Origin: Micrococcales bacterium
Lineage (GTDB): Bacteria > Actinomycetota > Actinomycetes > Actinomycetales > Microbacteriaceae
Reading direction: 5' to 3'
Assembly (NCBI GenBank): GCA_947454255.1
Contig: CANGIU010000004.1
Location: 1-64,000 of the forward strand
Length of the DNA stretch: 64,000 bases
The first letter of the stretch is position 1. Every line of letters begins with the position of its first letter. The notes under the pieces were generated by a model. The model saw only the letters and a list, made by a program, of their open reading frames with translations, was not told the DNA's origin and did not search any database. Of this stretch, positions 13,509 through 54,175 are shown in pieces. The translations under genes were made by a program, and so were the position numbers.

Positions 13509-14378
13509 TTGAGTACTGCTGAAACTAAATCCAGAAGTCTTTCCCAATCAGTAATTTTTGGGCTGATTCTGGGCTTTACATTTTTAGGCTCAGTACTCTT
13601 CATTAAAGAACTATTTGTTGCACTTATCGCATTAGCCTGCGCTGTTGGCGCTTGGGAGTTATCAACTGCTCTAAAGCAAAAGAATTGGTATGTTCCAAGA
13701 ATTCCGGTAACAGTCGGTTCTTTAGTAGTTATGCCACTTGCCTATTACGGAGGAGAACGGTGGCAGTGGCTCGGGGTTCTTGCTATCGTTGCCGCTTTGA
13801 TGCTTTGGCGAGGTGTCCAACTTATGATTGCACGCACCTCATTGCAACGATCATTTTCTGAGATTATTCGAGATTTCAGCGCAGCGGCGTTTGTGGTTGT
13901 CTACCTGCCTCTAACGATGAGCTTTGCAGCTCTAATAATTAGGGAACCAGCTCATGCAAACGCAGTGGATGGAAAATATTGGATCTTGACTGTCGTCATC
14001 ACAGTCATTCTGATAGACAGCAGTGCGTACCTATTTGGCCGGAAATTCGGTAAGCACCCGATGCTTCCTAAAGTGAGTCCAAAGAAGTCCTGGGAGGGAT
14101 TTGCTGTTTCAGCGATTTTTGCTCTCTTCAGTGCAATCATCTTTACTCTCTTGCTTTTGCACCTGCCATGGTGGTTTGGGGTGATTGTTGCTGGTGTGGT
14201 GTTAATGTCAGCAGTATTGGGAGATTTTGCAGAATCACTGATTAAGCGTGATCTAAGGGTAAAGGACATGTCTGACCTGATACCCGGCCATGGTGGAATG
14301 ATGGACCGACTGGATTCAATGCTTCCAGCCTCGCTAACCGGTTACGTCCTAATGATTATTGCGACAAGACTTTTCTAG
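13509..14378 (+). CDS. cdsA: Phosphatidate cytidylyltransferase
   Basis: Integral membrane enzyme (289 aa, ~8 hydrophobic segments) making CDP-diacylglycerol from phosphatidate and CTP, the branch point of phospholipid synthesis. The C-terminal signature is present as SLIKRDLRVKDMSD followed by LIPGHGGMMDRLDSM. TTG start at 13509 directly after frr. This is the housekeeping CDP-DAG synthase and differs from the CarS-like protein at 47972-48553. rlmN and dxr, frequent next neighbours in actinobacteria, are not found here. Confidence 0.95.
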   Translation: MSTAETKSRSLSQSVIFGLILGFTFLGSVLFIKELFVALIALACAVGAWELSTALKQKNWYVPRIPVTVGSLVVMPLAYYGGERWQWLGVLAIVAALMLWRGVQLMIARTSLQRSFSEIIRDFSAAAFVVVYLPLTMSFAALIIREPAHANAVDGKYWILTVVITVILIDSSAYLFGRKFGKHPMLPKVSPKKSWEGFAVSAIFALFSAIIFTLLLLHLPWWFGVIVAGVVLMSAVLGDFAESLIKRDLRVKDMSDLIPGHGGMMDRLDSMLPASLTGYVLMIIATRLF

Positions 14379-47971: not shown

Positions 47972-48553
47972 GTGAACATTGAACTTAATCAGTTCTTACA
48001 GACCCTCTCGCAAGCATTCACACTGCTGTTGCCAATTACATTTGCTGGGCTTTCTTTAATTATCTGCATGAGAAAGAACTGGCTAGCCAAACTCGATATT
48101 CCACTTGATGGTGGAATCAAACTTGGGGGAGAGCCACTTATTGGAAAGAGTAAGTCAGTTCGTAGTTTGGTCATTTATCTAGTAGTGGCAACCCTAGTAA
48201 CAATGCTGCTGAATTCTTTGGCGCAGGAATCTGATTTAGTAGCGCCTGTCTATTTGAATAATCCACTCATTCTTGGACCCGCGATTACCTTGTGTTATTT
48301 GGCTGGGGAAATAGTAAATAGCTTTGTTAAGAGAAGATTGAGAATAGCCACTAGTGGCCATGCTCTAACAAGTCTTGGAGCTAGAGTTCAATCAATCACT
48401 GACAATATAGATGGAATCATCTCAAGCGGTCTGCTGTTCATCTTCGTCTACAAACTCTCAACAGAAATACTGATGACTGCCTTTGTTCTATCAGTATTTA
48501 TTCACTTGAGCACAGATGCGCTTATGAGAAAACTAAAGCTAAAACGCAAGTAA
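47972..48553 (+). CDS. CDP-archaeol synthase (CarS)-like CTP transferase
   Basis: A 193-aa membrane protein with ~5 hydrophobic segments. The loop PLDGGIKLGGEPLIGKSKSV (44-63) and the later motif AGEIVNSFVKRRLRIATSG (~110-128) with DNIDGIISS match the CarS/PF01864 family, which activates unsaturated archaeal ether lipid phosphates with CTP. It is distinct from the housekeeping CdsA at 13509. Bacterial members can act on other lipids. GTG start after GGGGG. Its 3' end overlaps the convergent phytol-kinase-like gene by 15 nt. Confidence 0.75.
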   Translation: MNIELNQFLQTLSQAFTLLLPITFAGLSLIICMRKNWLAKLDIPLDGGIKLGGEPLIGKSKSVRSLVIYLVVATLVTMLLNSLAQESDLVAPVYLNNPLILGPAITLCYLAGEIVNSFVKRRLRIATSGHALTSLGARVQSITDNIDGIISSGLLFIFVYKLSTEILMTAFVLSVFIHLSTDALMRKLKLKRK

Positions 48554-49162
48554 TAATATTGCACCTGCAACTGGGACAGTCAGGTTATCAAAGCCAAGTG
48601 GCGTGATTCTTTCGACAAAAGTTAGCCCGACAGCAATACAGGGTGCGAAAAAATACATTCCCTGCCAAGGGTAGGTAAGTCCGTCACCATAGGCAACTAA
48701 AATTCCCAACGCTACCAGGAAGAATGTAATAGTTCCGGCCCAGGTCCTGATCTTTGATTTCAGTAAAGTGCCAACCAATCCAGCTAATGAATCAGCCAAG
48801 GTAATTATGAGAATTGCTGGGATAAAAACTTTTGGGTTGCTAAGCGAGACTACGTATGTGCATAAATAGCCAAGGCTCAAAACATACTGGCCATATGTTT
48901 GACGTTCGACATCATTGACTGAGGTTAGGAGATCTAACCTACTGAAAATGTAGAAGAGTATTCCACCTCCGATTATCAGTAAGACAACCCAGATTGCCGG
49001 TAGATACAGGTATTCAAGAATCACGACGCAGCCGGAAACTATGTGAGCAAATCTACGCATTATTTCTGGTGAGACACCAAAGACTCGCTTTATTAGCTCA
49101 ATTGCTGCGAAGCCGGCACAGAAAATCAGAGAAATCCCTAGAGCAATTAGAAAATCAATCAT
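48539..49162 (-). CDS. Phytol/dolichol kinase-like membrane protein
   Basis: A 207-aa protein with ~6-7 TM segments. The family block is ITLADSLAGLVGTLLKS followed by IRTWAGTITFFLVALG (the D-S-x-A-x-x-x-G and G-T-x-x-F pattern of VTE5/SEC59 CTP-dependent prenol kinases), and an N-terminal RRFAHIVSG matches the R-K-x-x-H region of the family. It would phosphorylate a prenyl or lipid alcohol. Last gene of the minus-strand operon; 4-nt overlap with the GNAT-like gene. Confidence 0.75.
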   Translation of the reverse strand: MIDFLIALGISLIFCAGFAAIELIKRVFGVSPEIMRRFAHIVSGCVVILEYLYLPAIWVVLLIIGGGILFYIFSRLDLLTSVNDVERQTYGQYVLSLGYLCTYVVSLSNPKVFIPAILIITLADSLAGLVGTLLKSKIRTWAGTITFFLVALGILVAYGDGLTYPWQGMYFFAPCIAVGLTFVERITPLGFDNLTVPVAGAILLLAF

Positions 49163-49665
49163 GCTGTCACCTTCGCTCTAATTGCAAAAAGAGGCTTCGC
49201 TGATTTGGTGTGCTGGGCAACCGCAGTTCTACTTGCACGGTTCAATCGCTTTGTTACAAAGCGACCTCTGGAAGCTACTATGACTTGGAAAAGTGAGGCT
49301 TCTCTAAAACCAAATTCGATTATGGCTTGTCTTATCAATGCAGCATCGTAGGTGGCAAGGATGAGTCCATCTGGAACATTGGCAAGCTCTCTAGCTAAAA
49401 GAATGAATGAGGATGCAGAGCGGAAGTCAGGCTTGATGAACATCAAGCCAACTTCCTTTAGACCTGGTCTTAGTTCTTCTCGGATTCCCCAGCCGACCAG
49501 TTGGTTCTCATGCCGCAGTATTACTAGATCGCCGGCGTGGGCGACTAATTGAAGGCTTTCAGCTGATCTTGGAGTGAGTTTGGTTTCAATCAGGGAAGTG
49601 TGCTGAATTTCTTCCAGAATTTCTTGAATAGAGCCTTCCAGAACTGGCGTTGCTACTAAAGCCAT
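49159..49665 (-). CDS. GNAT-like acyltransferase family protein
   Basis: A 168-aa soluble protein. The start at 49665 (MALVATPVLEG) is used because it overlaps the previous gene by only 10 nt. A GNAT-type texture is seen (LVILRHENQLVGWGI, KEVGLMFIKPDFRSASSFILLARE with basic/Ser acetyl-CoA loop, FGFREASLFQV), but a classic Q/RxxGxG/A loop is not clear. It may modify a precursor or an enzyme in this operon. The family call is tentative. Confidence 0.55.
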   Translation of the reverse strand: MALVATPVLEGSIQEILEEIQHTSLIETKLTPRSAESLQLVAHAGDLVILRHENQLVGWGIREELRPGLKEVGLMFIKPDFRSASSFILLARELANVPDGLILATYDAALIRQAIIEFGFREASLFQVIVASRGRFVTKRLNRASRTAVAQHTKSAKPLFAIRAKVTA

Positions 49666-50258
49666 ATGACGGCACCGATAGCGATTGCAAGAGAGACTGG
49701 GATCCAAAACAGCAAGACACCGGTCTTACGAGTTTTGATAGTTGACAGTTGCAAGCCGGCAAGAATTCCAAGTACCGTAGCTACCAACCATGCAGGAATA
49801 GTGACCAGCTGGCTTAGGAAGAAGATAAGTGCAACTGCCAGAGTTAGATGCGGTGTTACAACTCCAACGTAGTAAACCTTGTCATTCACCTTTGCAAAAC
49901 CATTGACTGTGAAAAGTACCAATCGAAGTATGCCGAAGGCAAGAATTAAAAAACCGATAAGGAATCCGGCAACACCTGGCAGCAATACCTGTTCGGTAAC
50001 CAGTGCTGCTAGTACTGAGTAATTGATGGCATCTACCATGCTGTCTAGGTAAGTGCCAAAGATGCTTGAAGTTCCTAATCGTCTCGCGACAAAACCATCC
50101 AGTGTGTCTAGCAAGAATGCTAGAACTGAAAATAAGATGGCAAGTTTTGGATTATTAGAAAGTATGAAGGAAATCGAAGTCCAAGCTGAGAGCAGGCTAA
50201 AAATGGTAACTAGTCCGGCCCAACCAATTTGCTTAGCTATGCCCCTAATGTGATTCAC
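49656..50258 (-). CDS. CDP-alcohol phosphatidyltransferase
   Basis: A 200-aa membrane enzyme with ~6 TM segments carrying the complete CDP-OH-PT motif: Asp51-x2-Asp54-Gly55-x2-Ala58-Arg59, Gly68, Asp72 and Asp76 (LDTLDGFVARR, FGTYLDSMVD). It replaces CMP of a CDP-activated lipid with a head-group alcohol. GTG at 50258 is chosen because GGGGAGC lies 7-10 nt upstream; it overlaps the dikinase gene by 14 nt. Substrate and head group unknown; the pairing with a CarS-like enzyme suggests a non-standard CDP-lipid. Confidence 0.85.
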   Translation of the reverse strand: MNHIRGIAKQIGWAGLVTIFSLLSAWTSISFILSNNPKLAILFSVLAFLLDTLDGFVARRLGTSSIFGTYLDSMVDAINYSVLAALVTEQVLLPGVAGFLIGFLILAFGILRLVLFTVNGFAKVNDKVYYVGVVTPHLTLAVALIFFLSQLVTIPAWLVATVLGILAGLQLSTIKTRKTGVLLFWIPVSLAIAIGAVIWL

Positions 50259-52680
50259 GTGTAATGCTCCCCGTAGTTCCGTTAATAGTGATGATATCCC
50301 CTGTATTAAGTATGGTGGTTGCACCCAACGCCGCGACTACTGCAGGAATGCCTATTTCACGAGCGATGATAGCTGCGTGCGATAGTGCGTTTCCTCGCTC
50401 AGCCAAAATGCCAGCGGCTTGAGTAAACAGTAGTGTCCAACCGGGATCGATGTGGTGCACAACGAGAATCTTTCCTCGCACATCAACCGAAGCATCAAAT
50501 TCAGTACAGACAACAACCTCAGCAGTGAGGACCCCAGGTGCCACACCACGTCCGGCAAAACCATCAGTGCCATCGGTTGGTAGGACAGGATTCAAATGTG
50601 CTCCAGCAATATTTCCAACACCTTTGATACCTAACTCCATATTGGTTTTGCTATAGGTGCTAAAGAGTTTCTTACGCTGAGAAATAACTGGCTTTGCATC
50701 TAATGACCAAGCATGAGCGTTAACTATCTCGTCTACCTCTTGTTCGGTGAGCCAATAGATATCTCTGCTGGTCTTCAGGAAACCCTCCGCACTAAGGATC
50801 TTGCCTACCGCATCGTAGAGAGTTCTAGATAGGTCAAAAGTCTGTGCTCTGTTAAAGCGGAAACGTTCGCGCCAATCTATTGCTTTACGAGTGTTATTAG
50901 ACACCCATCGCAACAGTGGTCGTTGGTAGAAAGGCACGGATTTTGGCCAAGCAAGCTTTTGCTTTGCTTTGTCGTTTCTGTTTACCGAGTTAGAGGTAAA
51001 TGTTGATTCATGGGCCTTTAGGGCCATCTCCAAGACATCTGAGAGATCGTCGGTAAGGCGAACAGATTCAAGCTTTAGTTCACCTGGGGTTCTAGAACCA
51101 AATGCAGTTACATATGCATCTGCGGCTTCGGTAACTTTGTACCAACTCGGCGTCATTCGCAAAGCGTCGATTGTTTTAACCTGTTCATTGCTGAGTGCTT
51201 TAGCTATAACGCCGCCAACCTGCGCAAGCTGCTCCAGAGGCTTTAGGCTAGCCCGATCGGTTAGCCCTTGCAGGAAGGCAAGATATTCAGTTTGATCTTC
51301 AGAGTTGAAAAAATATTTCTTTAGCATTCCATGGAAGACCATGAGCTTTACGTCATTCAGGATTGGAATGGCCCAGTCTGAGAGAAGTTCAACCTTAACT
51401 CGTTTAGAGGCTGCCAACAATTCAGCAGCGTTGACATACTCCACCTGGTAACTCTTGAAGAATGCAATCTTCTTGGCAAACTTCTTTCTAAATTGCTTTG
51501 ATTTGGATTCAGACCGGTTTATCAGCCAGAGGAAGTTCACGATTGCCAAAATGGATTTTAGATCCATCGTCTTTCTACGCTTTGGTCTTTCAACCTTTTT
51601 GGTTACTGGATTGAGCATTGCTTCAAAGAACTGCTGGTTGGCTCTACCAGGTAAGAACTTTAGAAGTTCATACCAATTTGTGATTCGGTAATAGACATTT
51701 CCATTTAGGTAGCCAAGCATGTTTCTAAATTGAGCTTCATCGGCACGCAAAAGGTGCTCTGGTGTTCCTAAGAGCCGAAGGAAGGACATATAAACACCGG
51801 CGTATAGCTCGCGGATAACTGAATAAGTCAGGGGGAGAGTAACACCGGGGTAGTTCTCGGAAATATTTGTTGAATCCCAATCCAATTCATAAGAAAGGTT
51901 ACGAACTGTAATCGGTCGCATTTGTAGGAACATGATTTGTCCATGGGCAATAGCCCATTCGATATCCAACGGGTAACCCAATTTTGCTTCAAGTTCAAGA
52001 GAGAGCCTGCAGAGGTTACGTAGGTCCTTAGAAATAGATTTGGTATCCAGTTGATCTCTAAAAAATACATATTCTTTTGAATCTGAACCTTCAACGACGG
52101 TGTTGCGCCAGGAATCTACACTGGCAATAGCAATGGCACCTGAACCATTCTCGGTAAAGAGAACGCCGGAAGAGCTTCCATAAAACATCTCTTGAACAAT
52201 GAATGAGCCACCCAGATCAAAGTCTCGGAGTCCTCGCTCTCGCGCGTAGCGAAGCACTCGGATAGTAAGCATGCTCTTAAAGCACGCAAGGGCATGCTTC
52301 TTTAGGGCTTTCTGGTTGTATTCAACATCAAGGAATGACTCATACTGACCAGCGAAAGAAGCGATAGGGCCGTCTTCAACTATTGCTGAAGTTCTAAAGC
52401 TGACCTTTGTCCAAGATTTCTCAGTGATTGTTGTGTGGATCTTGGTAAGTTCGCCATCGTTGAAGGTTAGCGTAGCCAGAATCTGATCTATTGCTTTTAT
52501 AAGGGGAGCTTCTCTACCAGTGTTGAAGTATGAATCGATTGATTTAACTAAATGCATCCTAGTTTTTTCAAAGTTTAGGATGACATCAGAAAATGGGACA
52601 ACGACGAATGCCGGTACCGGCAATCTAAATTCATCGCGCAGTCTTGTAAGACCCTGCGCTTTTCCCCCTAGAGCATTCAC
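50245..52680 (-). CDS. PEP-synthase/rifampin-phosphotransferase-like dikinase
   Basis: An 811-aa enzyme with N-terminal ATP-grasp (GGKAQGLTRLRDEF, VPAFVVVP, SFRTSAIVEDGPIASFAGQYESF, LQMRPIT), a ~350-residue unassigned middle domain (~290-640), and a C-terminal swivelling domain with phosphohistidine ~His768 in GNALSHAAIIAREIGIPAVV. The PEP-binding barrel of PEP synthase is absent, so the layout fits the rifampin phosphotransferase type: beta-phosphate of ATP via His to a hydroxyl acceptor. The acceptor may be a lipid intermediate. It overlaps both neighbouring genes. Confidence 0.8.
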   Translation of the reverse strand: MNALGGKAQGLTRLRDEFRLPVPAFVVVPFSDVILNFEKTRMHLVKSIDSYFNTGREAPLIKAIDQILATLTFNDGELTKIHTTITEKSWTKVSFRTSAIVEDGPIASFAGQYESFLDVEYNQKALKKHALACFKSMLTIRVLRYARERGLRDFDLGGSFIVQEMFYGSSSGVLFTENGSGAIAIASVDSWRNTVVEGSDSKEYVFFRDQLDTKSISKDLRNLCRLSLELEAKLGYPLDIEWAIAHGQIMFLQMRPITVRNLSYELDWDSTNISENYPGVTLPLTYSVIRELYAGVYMSFLRLLGTPEHLLRADEAQFRNMLGYLNGNVYYRITNWYELLKFLPGRANQQFFEAMLNPVTKKVERPKRRKTMDLKSILAIVNFLWLINRSESKSKQFRKKFAKKIAFFKSYQVEYVNAAELLAASKRVKVELLSDWAIPILNDVKLMVFHGMLKKYFFNSEDQTEYLAFLQGLTDRASLKPLEQLAQVGGVIAKALSNEQVKTIDALRMTPSWYKVTEAADAYVTAFGSRTPGELKLESVRLTDDLSDVLEMALKAHESTFTSNSVNRNDKAKQKLAWPKSVPFYQRPLLRWVSNNTRKAIDWRERFRFNRAQTFDLSRTLYDAVGKILSAEGFLKTSRDIYWLTEQEVDEIVNAHAWSLDAKPVISQRKKLFSTYSKTNMELGIKGVGNIAGAHLNPVLPTDGTDGFAGRGVAPGVLTAEVVVCTEFDASVDVRGKILVVHHIDPGWTLLFTQAAGILAERGNALSHAAIIAREIGIPAVVAALGATTILNTGDIITINGTTGSITRESH

Positions 52681-53519
52681 GAGAAGAATGCTACCAAGCC
52701 AATGGTGAAGAATCCCACGATAGTGGCGGCTTGGACGAACCTATTTGATTTACTAACCAGGACAATAAGCAGCCCGGCTAGGACTCCCAGCAGTCCTAGA
52801 CAGTAACTGAAGCCACCTAAGAAATATCCACTTAGAGCTAGGCAAAGGGCTAATACTGCAACCGAAACGGGGCGACCCCATACCGCTAGGTAGGTGTCTT
52901 GAACAACCTCTCCTGAAGCGTTCTTTCGGATTTCGAACTTTCTCATTACTTCAAGGGCTGCCATCGAAAGAATAAAGGCTAGCCCGTTTAGAACAGCTTG
53001 AATTGAATATTGAACTCCAAAAATAGTAAGCGACCAGAGATAGAAGAAAACGAATATCAATTGGTGGCTTAGGAAGTAAAGAGTGAAATGGCGGTTTAGC
53101 CATTGCGCGGCAAAGAATTCATAGGCAGTAAGGGTTGAAAAGATCAGGACCGCAAGGTAGGCAAGAAGGCTGAACCATGAATTGGTGAAGATAGCAATGG
53201 AGCTAACAGCAGAGAGCTCAATCAGAAACGCAATGAAACCTATCGGTTTGAGTTGCTTGTGAGTGATGACTCCACGTTGGACAGGTCGATTCGGGTAGTT
53301 CGCATCATCGTGAGAGCGATCCTTGAACTCGTCCATTACTCGCTGACGTAAAAGGAAAGCAGTGAATGCGACTGTAATTAAAAAGGTGATGAAATAGTTT
53401 GTTTGAGTTGGAACCTCAGTAGTGGATGTAGCGACTAGCCAGATTGCAGTTCCAACTGAAAGAGTGATTACGACCGGGAGCGGAAACCGCTCCCGGAAGT
53501 AATCAGCTGCTGAACCCAA
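52677..53519 (-). CDS. UbiA-superfamily prenyltransferase
   Basis: A 280-aa protein with 8-9 TM segments. The first Asp-rich motif is intact: Asp63, Asp67, Asp71, then Asn74, Pro76, Arg78-Pro79 (MDEFKDRSHDDANYPNRPVQ). A second polar region (EVMRKFEIRKNASGEVVQDTY, ~185-210) replaces the usual second DxxxD. UbiA enzymes transfer a prenyl chain to an aromatic ring, to glycerol-phosphate lipids (DGGGP synthase) or to heme; which applies is unknown. It overlaps the dikinase gene by 4 nt. Confidence 0.82.
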   Translation of the reverse strand: MGSAADYFRERFPLPVVITLSVGTAIWLVATSTTEVPTQTNYFITFLITVAFTAFLLRQRVMDEFKDRSHDDANYPNRPVQRGVITHKQLKPIGFIAFLIELSAVSSIAIFTNSWFSLLAYLAVLIFSTLTAYEFFAAQWLNRHFTLYFLSHQLIFVFFYLWSLTIFGVQYSIQAVLNGLAFILSMAALEVMRKFEIRKNASGEVVQDTYLAVWGRPVSVAVLALCLALSGYFLGGFSYCLGLLGVLAGLLIVLVSKSNRFVQAATIVGFFTIGLVAFFS

Positions 53520-53524
53520 TAGAA

Positions 53525-54175
53525 CTAGCGGGCAATAAATTCAGGGCTTTTACGGATGTGGGTAACCACTAGTCCGAGCAAACCGAAGAGCATTACGTAT
53601 CCGTTCAAGCCTTGCAGGTCATCATTAGTGCTAACAATTAGCACTACGCCAGAAAGAGTCACAACGTTGAAGAACAAACGTGTGAACATTGCATCTCTGA
53701 CCGAAGCAATGTGGAGAGTAACTATGTGAACTGCTGGCATTAGGGCACCTGCAAAAACAACCACATAGAACAAAATGGCGATTGGTTCTGCATTGAAGTA
53801 GAACAAACCGTTGTCGCTAAATGAAGGATTTGAAGGTGTAACAAATGTTCGTAGAACAAATAGTGTTCCGATAACAAGCGCTGCCACAACTAGTAGGTTA
53901 CGGCGAGTCGATGCTGTGAAGTCAGATGTGCCTGCTGCCACAAAGAACAGATTTGCTAGACCAAACGGAATAACTCCGATGGTTGTTAGCAGTGTTAGAT
54001 CTGCAGGTTGTGTTGCGACAATTACTGACCAGGTGGCAAAAGCTACTGCCAGAAGGGACATTCCAATGCCAAACATGCGGAAGGCATAAGTTTTTCCCGA
54101 CACGAATCGGAAACCTAGTAAAGCAAAAGATAGGCCCCCGATGAGAAAGAAAATAAATACATTTAGATTCGTCAT
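53525..54175 (-). CDS. Seven-TM membrane protein, first gene of the lipid-type operon
   Basis: A 216-aa protein with about seven hydrophobic segments and little else. No motif recognised; an eighth helix is not evident. It is the promoter-proximal gene of a six-gene minus-strand unit and lies 5 nt before the UbiA gene, so it probably shares the pathway, perhaps as transporter, flippase or scaffold; that is guesswork. Confidence 0.6.
   Translation of the reverse strand: MTNLNVFIFFLIGGLSFALLGFRFVSGKTYAFRMFGIGMSLLAVAFATWSVIVATQPADLTLLTTIGVIPFGLANLFFVAAGTSDFTASTRRNLLVVAALVIGTLFVLRTFVTPSNPSFSDNGLFYFNAEPIAILFYVVVFAGALMPAVHIVTLHIASVRDAMFTRLFFNVVTLSGVVLIVSTNDDLQGLNGYVMLFGLLGLVVTHIRKSPEFIAR

Follow-up and report, generated by a model that had tools for sequence, protein, structure and literature searches.

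A compact operon with UbiA, CarS and dikinase genes in a Rhodoluna-type freshwater actinobacterium, and its possible role in the synthesis of a minor phospholipid

The archaeal glycerophospholipid pathway, which leads through glycerol 1-phosphate (G1P), geranylgeranylglyceryl phosphate (GGGP), digeranylgeranylglyceryl phosphate (DGGGP) and CDP-archaeol, includes a UbiA-type prenyltransferase, the cytidylyltransferase CarS and a serine-type CDP-alcohol phosphatidyltransferase. An operon with the same three kinds of enzyme lies in a 64,000-nt stretch of contig CANGIU010000004.1 (assembly GCA_947454255.1; the whole stretch is referred to here as the window) from a Micrococcales bacterium of the Microbacteriaceae, and the version found in its relatives adds a decarboxylase, which is a further likeness to the archaeal pathway. 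The differences are the lack of a GGGP synthase (GGGPS) over cut-off, an altered motif 3 in the UbiA protein and the presence of an extra dikinase.

Archaeal-like lipid genes beside the normal ones are also on record from other bacteria. Two reports describe GGGPS and DGGGP synthase (DGGGPS), without CarS, in Cloacimonetes (PMC7852524) and place Streptomyces among the lineages with orthologues of G1P dehydrogenase, GGGPS and DGGGPS (PMC6431249). The present case resembles both in kind and differs from that of the Cloacimonetes in having CarS, while a search of the carriers for GGGPS found none. The dikinase, for its part, shares with rifampin phosphotransferase and the phenol dikinases (Rph, HpeHI and PpsAB) an ATP-grasp domain, a central substrate domain and a swivelling phosphohistidine domain after which the protein ends, and differs from them in being encoded in a lipid-type operon together with UbiA. 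No description of this gene combination was found in the literature, most subscription journals lying outside the search. On balance we lean towards the view that the operon is dedicated to a minor phospholipid, made in parallel to the CdsA pathway.

Conservation of the operon and its core

The host is a streamlined freshwater member of the Microbacteriaceae, represented by a Rhodoluna-type metagenome-assembled genome (MAG) of 1.24 Mb and 94% completeness (G000). A preliminary description of the window had reported six minus-strand genes with a CarS-like gene convergent on them, packed with overlaps of 4–14 nt and one gap of 5 nt. All seven are present as open reading frames at that place, and the packing is reproduced when gene starts are picked to agree with relatives (the transferase then starts at the GTG at 50258, its open frame extending to 50324): from CarS to the membrane protein gene, which lies 5 nt upstream of UbiA, the spacing is −15 (convergent), −4, −10, −14, −4 and +5 nt, and equivalent starts in the nearest relative copy of the operon (L014) give identical values. 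Against that copy the ratio of nonsynonymous to synonymous substitution (dN/dS) is 0.06–0.18 in all seven genes, the figures for CarS and the kinase-like gene being only rough because their dS exceeds 1. The seven genes are real and under purifying selection.

Among 67 genomes of the genus, UbiA was found in eight and the dikinase in seven; the only one of the 22 good-quality genus genomes with the dikinase is the window's own. The six genes other than that for the membrane protein co-occur in sister species whose copies may be as little as about 40% identical, and wherever the contigs permit they follow the order UbiA, dikinase, CDP-alcohol transferase, GNAT-like, kinase-like and convergent CarS. 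This run is complete on a single contig in four of the eight carriers (G000, G245, G221 and G239); CarS is truncated at a contig end in G260, G235 and G241 each have the run divided between two contigs, and G234 offers a contig edge only. The membrane protein is accessory rather than part of the core, since only four of the eight (G000, G245, G260 and G234) have one. The proteins of the window operon are 37–59% identical to those of G221 and G239, compared with 83% for the flanking alpha/beta hydrolase gene in G221, a difference which would fit either fast evolution of the operon or its exchange between species.

A UbiA search of 198 genomes of the order returned four further carriers besides the window genome, from two other families (f16 and f20), and all four have CarS and a dikinase in the same operon as UbiA. 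These operons contain homologues of UbiA, CarS, the dikinase and the CDP-alcohol transferase, together with a second dikinase and a phosphatidylserine decarboxylase. In family f20, where UbiA occurs in three of 18 genomes (G070, G112 and G098), the order is UbiA, CarS, dikinase 1, CDP-alcohol transferase and a fused decarboxylase–dikinase 2 frame. The fusion was profile-tested in G070; in G112, and in G098 where the contig stops inside the frame, it is taken from the open frame itself. In G079 of family f16 the order is CarS, dikinase 1, transferase, decarboxylase, UbiA and dikinase 2. Each of the four genomes has a single PF02666 match, the operon decarboxylase; at E≤0.01 nine Rhodoluna genomes (five carriers and four non-carriers) have none. 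An additional downstream gene in G070, G112 and G079 is GNAT-like by eye, the L018 and L017 copies scoring under every family cut-off. The neighbourhood survey that the preliminary description had proposed thus found, in the genomes searched, genes that stay together across species of the genus and, as a core, across families, which supports their belonging to one pathway. Conservation of that core between families, together with a head-group decarboxylase, goes beyond the preliminary description.

The pairing of UbiA with a dikinase extends to unrelated bacteria. Searched against plasmids at E≤1e-20, dikinase 2 of G079 has one match, in Roseinatronobacter sp. S2, where the gene order is UbiA, dikinase, DUF3419, a 439-residue protein without family, a weakly GNAT-like protein and an AMP-binding ligase (L093:3835-8507). 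DUF3419 is the family of BtaA, which places a homoserine head on diacylglycerol. The position of this gene after UbiA and the dikinase recalls betaine-lipid synthesis by BtaA, from which the window differs in having no DUF3419. Queries with the Roseinatronobacter proteins retrieved the pair from 16 plasmid records, all from the single species Streptomyces clavuligerus; in the one record that was opened, a giant plasmid, AfsA, an ICMT-family protein, the dikinase, UbiA and an oxidoreductase are encoded together (L094:7355-14033). This UbiA is annotated as hypothetical, was matched by the query over 39 residues only and scores 19.6 bits in Pfam, under the cut-off of 34.2, but it retains the shared invariant residues. 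The adjacent AfsA recalls the gamma-butyrolactone clusters of Streptomyces; the window operon differs in having CarS and no AfsA. A Streptomyces durmitorensis plasmid has AfsA, ICMT and the dikinase with no annotated UbiA nearby, and the same region (L095:4669-14991) also carries nitroreductase, P450, nucleotidyltransferase, thymidylate-kinase and ketoacyl synthase (KAS) III genes.

In a tree of the dikinases, dikinase 2, the Roseinatronobacter protein and both Streptomyces proteins fall in one half (94/94 for the branch between halves), and dikinase 1 of f16 and f20 forms a separate group (100/100). None of the 52 matches from a UbiA pattern scan of viral contigs was a relative, and the UbiA of L017 had no match among plasmids, a weak null because the Roseinatronobacter plasmid carries such a UbiA. 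Because they are paired in four settings (Rhodoluna, f16/f20, Roseinatronobacter and S. clavuligerus), UbiA and the dikinase form a reusable core module, around which the head-group genes vary and whose product need not always be a membrane lipid.

Properties of the core enzymes

The window UbiA has no Pfam match up to E=0.1, and its NCBIfam prenyltransferase matches are under cut-off (59 against 239 bits). To model NF010118 (PRK13592 prenyltransferase, cut-off 443 bits) it scores 41.5 bits, and its relative in L018 428.5 bits; at E≤1e-20 this model matched none of 396 genomes of the phylum and none of the control genomes, which is no proof of absence, and the threshold also misses the window UbiA. 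A structural model, with a predicted local distance difference test score (pLDDT) of 82, matched UBIAD1 (Z 14.8) and the Aeropyrum pernix UbiA (Z 13.6). Because soluble prenyl synthases score up to Z 13.7, the predicted fold shows an isoprenoid-synthase/UbiA-type protein and carries no information on substrate. The DxxxD of motif 1 is kept (D63, D67 and D71 invariant). Motif 3 reads ExxRK and the second Asp-rich motif is missing, the position of RDIETD in MenA reading RKFEIR in the window protein and RKIRAP, or something close to it, in the others; in the Methanocaldococcus jannaschii enzyme the motif 3 aspartates are D183, D187 and D190 (PMC9385802). A lysine occupies this place in the heme O synthase of the genome as well (VKYKDD), so such a change is found elsewhere too and ExxRK by itself is no proof of lost diphosphate binding.

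For CarS, a profile of eight relatives matched the solved CDP-archaeol synthase 5guf at E=1.7e-11 and CdsA only at E=0.45. The window protein scores 38 bits to the Pfam CarS-like model (cut-off 22) and 57 bits to the NCBIfam CDP-archaeol-type model (equivalog cut-off 148). At E≤0.001, PF01864 matches 56 of the 396 phylum genomes, own included, and most of these matches look, by score, like cross-hits to CdsA. Two were inspected, of which that in G656 is cdsA by its neighbours and that in the GC-rich G433, from another lineage of the phylum, is a solo CarS-like gene (L077:9915-10469) with no UbiA match nearby. The operon CarS profile at E≤1e-5 found eight of 394 class genomes, again own included, the other seven by partial matches of 26–30 bits; CarS of L018 had no match among plasmids.

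The CDP-alcohol transferase reaches 48.7 bits in Pfam, and its best NCBIfam model is pssA (59.8 bits, under the cut-off of 107). Phosphatidylserine synthase is the best solved match both of the window protein (7pow, E=5e-8) and of the family profile (5.7e-14). The motif DxxDGxxAR..G..D..D is intact, with its Asp and Gly residues invariant in nine sequences.

The dikinase has Pfam PPDK_N and PEP-utilizers matches. In a phmmer comparison it matches Rph 5fbs at E=5.5e-38, and its structural model, of moderate confidence (pLDDT 75, predicted TM-score 0.58), has Rph 5hv1 as best match (E=4e-29, TM-score 0.45, root-mean-square deviation 17), a match to be read domain by domain. The phosphohistidine motif is intact and His768 invariant in ten sequences, and to the PigC/RedH ligase models the protein scores below cut-off. 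Sequence and model point to a protein that resembles rifampin phosphotransferase and is a candidate kinase of small hydroxyl compounds.

The proposed pathway and its competitors

In the pathway that we favour, UbiA would attach a chain, isoprenoid or similar, to an acceptor that is either a small molecule or a lipid, and the dikinase would take phosphate from ATP via phosphohistidine and pass it, as its family and its pairing with UbiA suggest, most likely to a hydroxyl group on either the substrate or the product of UbiA. CarS would then use CTP to activate the resulting lipid phosphate, after which the CDP-alcohol transferase would exchange CMP for serine, to judge by the best matches of both proteins. 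In the two other families the phosphatidylserine decarboxylase would go on to yield an ethanolamine head group; in Rhodoluna, where the tested genomes yielded no decarboxylase, the product would keep its serine head or have a different alcohol in its place. A possible task of the kinase-like protein is to recycle a prenol or lipid alcohol. The occurrence in the same operon of CarS, the phosphatidylserine-synthase-like transferase and, in relatives, the decarboxylase supports a lipid-type product, and the same enzymes point to a probable phospholipid branch with a serine head group (ethanolamine elsewhere). The single lipid pathway distinct from CdsA that had been put forward is thus supported in its linkage and its lipid-type product, its reaction steps being predictions.

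Several observations weigh against this proposal. CarS, UbiA and the CDP-alcohol transferase all fall under the NCBIfam equivalog cut-offs. Neither the GNAT-like nor the kinase-like gene of the window has a BLAST match in the other-family operons. The occurrence in Rhodoluna is sporadic (8/67), which means that the operon does not serve a core membrane function. Diphosphatidylglycerol, phosphatidylglycerol and two unknown glycolipids, with no serine lipid, are the major polar lipids of Rhodoluna lacicola (PMC4156110), a comparison limited by the fact that the presence of the operon in that strain was not determined. What is shown here concerns gene content, conservation and enzyme families, and the lipid is a prediction from these. 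Finally, the company of AfsA and ICMT in S. clavuligerus suggests that the pair there may make a signal or secondary metabolite.

That last point introduces the competitor that survives best, which we nevertheless hold to be unlikely, namely that the window operon makes a prenylated and phosphorylated signalling molecule or secondary metabolite, decorated by CarS and the transferase. The sporadic distribution, the S. clavuligerus neighbourhood, the resemblance of the dikinase to rifampin phosphotransferase and its PigC/RedH scores would all suit such a product, but CarS, the transferase and the relatives' decarboxylase are lipid head-group enzymes.

Prenol salvage is a poorer candidate, and we think it improbable. 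Here the kinase-like protein and the dikinase would convert phytol or another prenol to the diphosphate for UbiA, the head-group genes having a second function, much as VTE5 and VTE6 feed a UbiA enzyme in plants. The three genes do share an operon, but the dikinase and UbiA persist in the other families, where the kinase-like gene finds no match, and its family assignment has no Pfam, NCBIfam or PDB profile behind it.

A true archaeal-type diether phospholipid has still less in its favour and seems to us very improbable. CarS, UbiA motif 1, the serine-type transferase and the relatives' decarboxylase resemble the late-stage archaeal set, and every one of nine carriers has at least one polyprenyl synthase, but PcrB/GGGPS (PF01884) exceeds its cut-off in none of the nine (best 19 bits, partial; G000 is 94% complete and several of the others are incomplete MAGs of 66–89%), compared with five of 14 control genomes, and UbiA has ExxRK in place of the Asp motif. 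Because of these two features the predicted pathway differs from the archaeal one as known; the preliminary description had proposed the genome check and had likewise held that a true archaeal lipid was not shown.

UbiA enzymes generally serve heme O, menaquinone or pigment synthesis, but that this one does so, with its neighbours there by chance, is hardly credible, since G000 has separate genes for heme O synthase and MenA at other places in the genome, the 11 operon-type UbiAs cluster together (99/99, long branches leaving the inner order of the cluster unsure) apart from nine paralogues from four carriers, those two included, and the same genes keep together in other species and families. 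In the genomes searched, UbiA was thus not placed in a known, unrelated pathway, an outcome that the preliminary description had named as refuting.

Returning to the minor phospholipid, we suggest more tentatively that it might represent an undescribed class of bacterial phospholipid, with a GGGPS-free prenylated core made by UbiA and the dikinase, a bacterial CarS and a serine or ethanolamine head, the same pair feeding DUF3419-type or AfsA-type products elsewhere. If true, this would be a second bacterial phospholipid pathway, combining head-group activation of archaeal type with a class of dikinase so far associated with the inactivation of drugs and the degradation of phenols. It would offer a route to isoprenoid lipids outside GGGP, which bears on the exclusivity of the lipid divide, and a function for UbiA and PEP-synthase-like genes that at present have a family name only or are called hypothetical.

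Gene inventory and minor observations

The genes of the operon are listed in Table 1; their G+C content is 41–47%, that of the window 47%. The names given earlier to CarS, the CDP-alcohol transferase and the dikinase are backed by scores over the Pfam cut-offs, and those of the kinase-like and GNAT-like proteins are not, as these two and the membrane protein have no Pfam or NCBIfam match. A PDB profile search was equally without a match for the kinase-like protein and gave nothing significant for the GNAT-like one (best E=1.6). The likeness of the kinase-like protein to VTE5/SEC59 and the names of the other two are putative, from sequence motifs. Both the kinase-like and the GNAT-like gene are conserved in the carriers.

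Table 1. Genes of the operon and the convergent CarS-like gene, with positions in the window
Gene product	Position	Strand	Basis or remark
CarS-like CTP:lipid-phosphate cytidylyltransferase	47972..48553	+	Pfam CarS-like match; converges on the operon and overlaps it by 15 nt
Kinase-like multi-span membrane protein	48539..49162	-	Putatively VTE5/SEC59-type, by motifs only
GNAT-like protein	49159..49665	-	Putative name; kept in carriers
CDP-alcohol phosphatidyltransferase, phosphatidylserine-synthase-like	49656..50258	-	Pfam match and intact motif
Rifampin-phosphotransferase-like dikinase (dikinase 2)	50245..52680	-	ATP-grasp, central and phosphohistidine domains
UbiA-superfamily membrane prenyltransferase, ExxRK type	52677..53519	-	NCBIfam matches under cut-off, fold and motifs
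Accessory membrane protein	53525..54175	-	No family match

The separate cdsA gene reported earlier at 13.5 kb is present at 13509-14378, identified by eye. A role in phage defence was considered and rejected, none of the seven proteins matching PADLOC at E≤0.001. In G235 and G241 an ABC transporter operon, of polyamine type by its look, lies near the operon or its fragment (L109:5039-8900 and L023:4073-7933).

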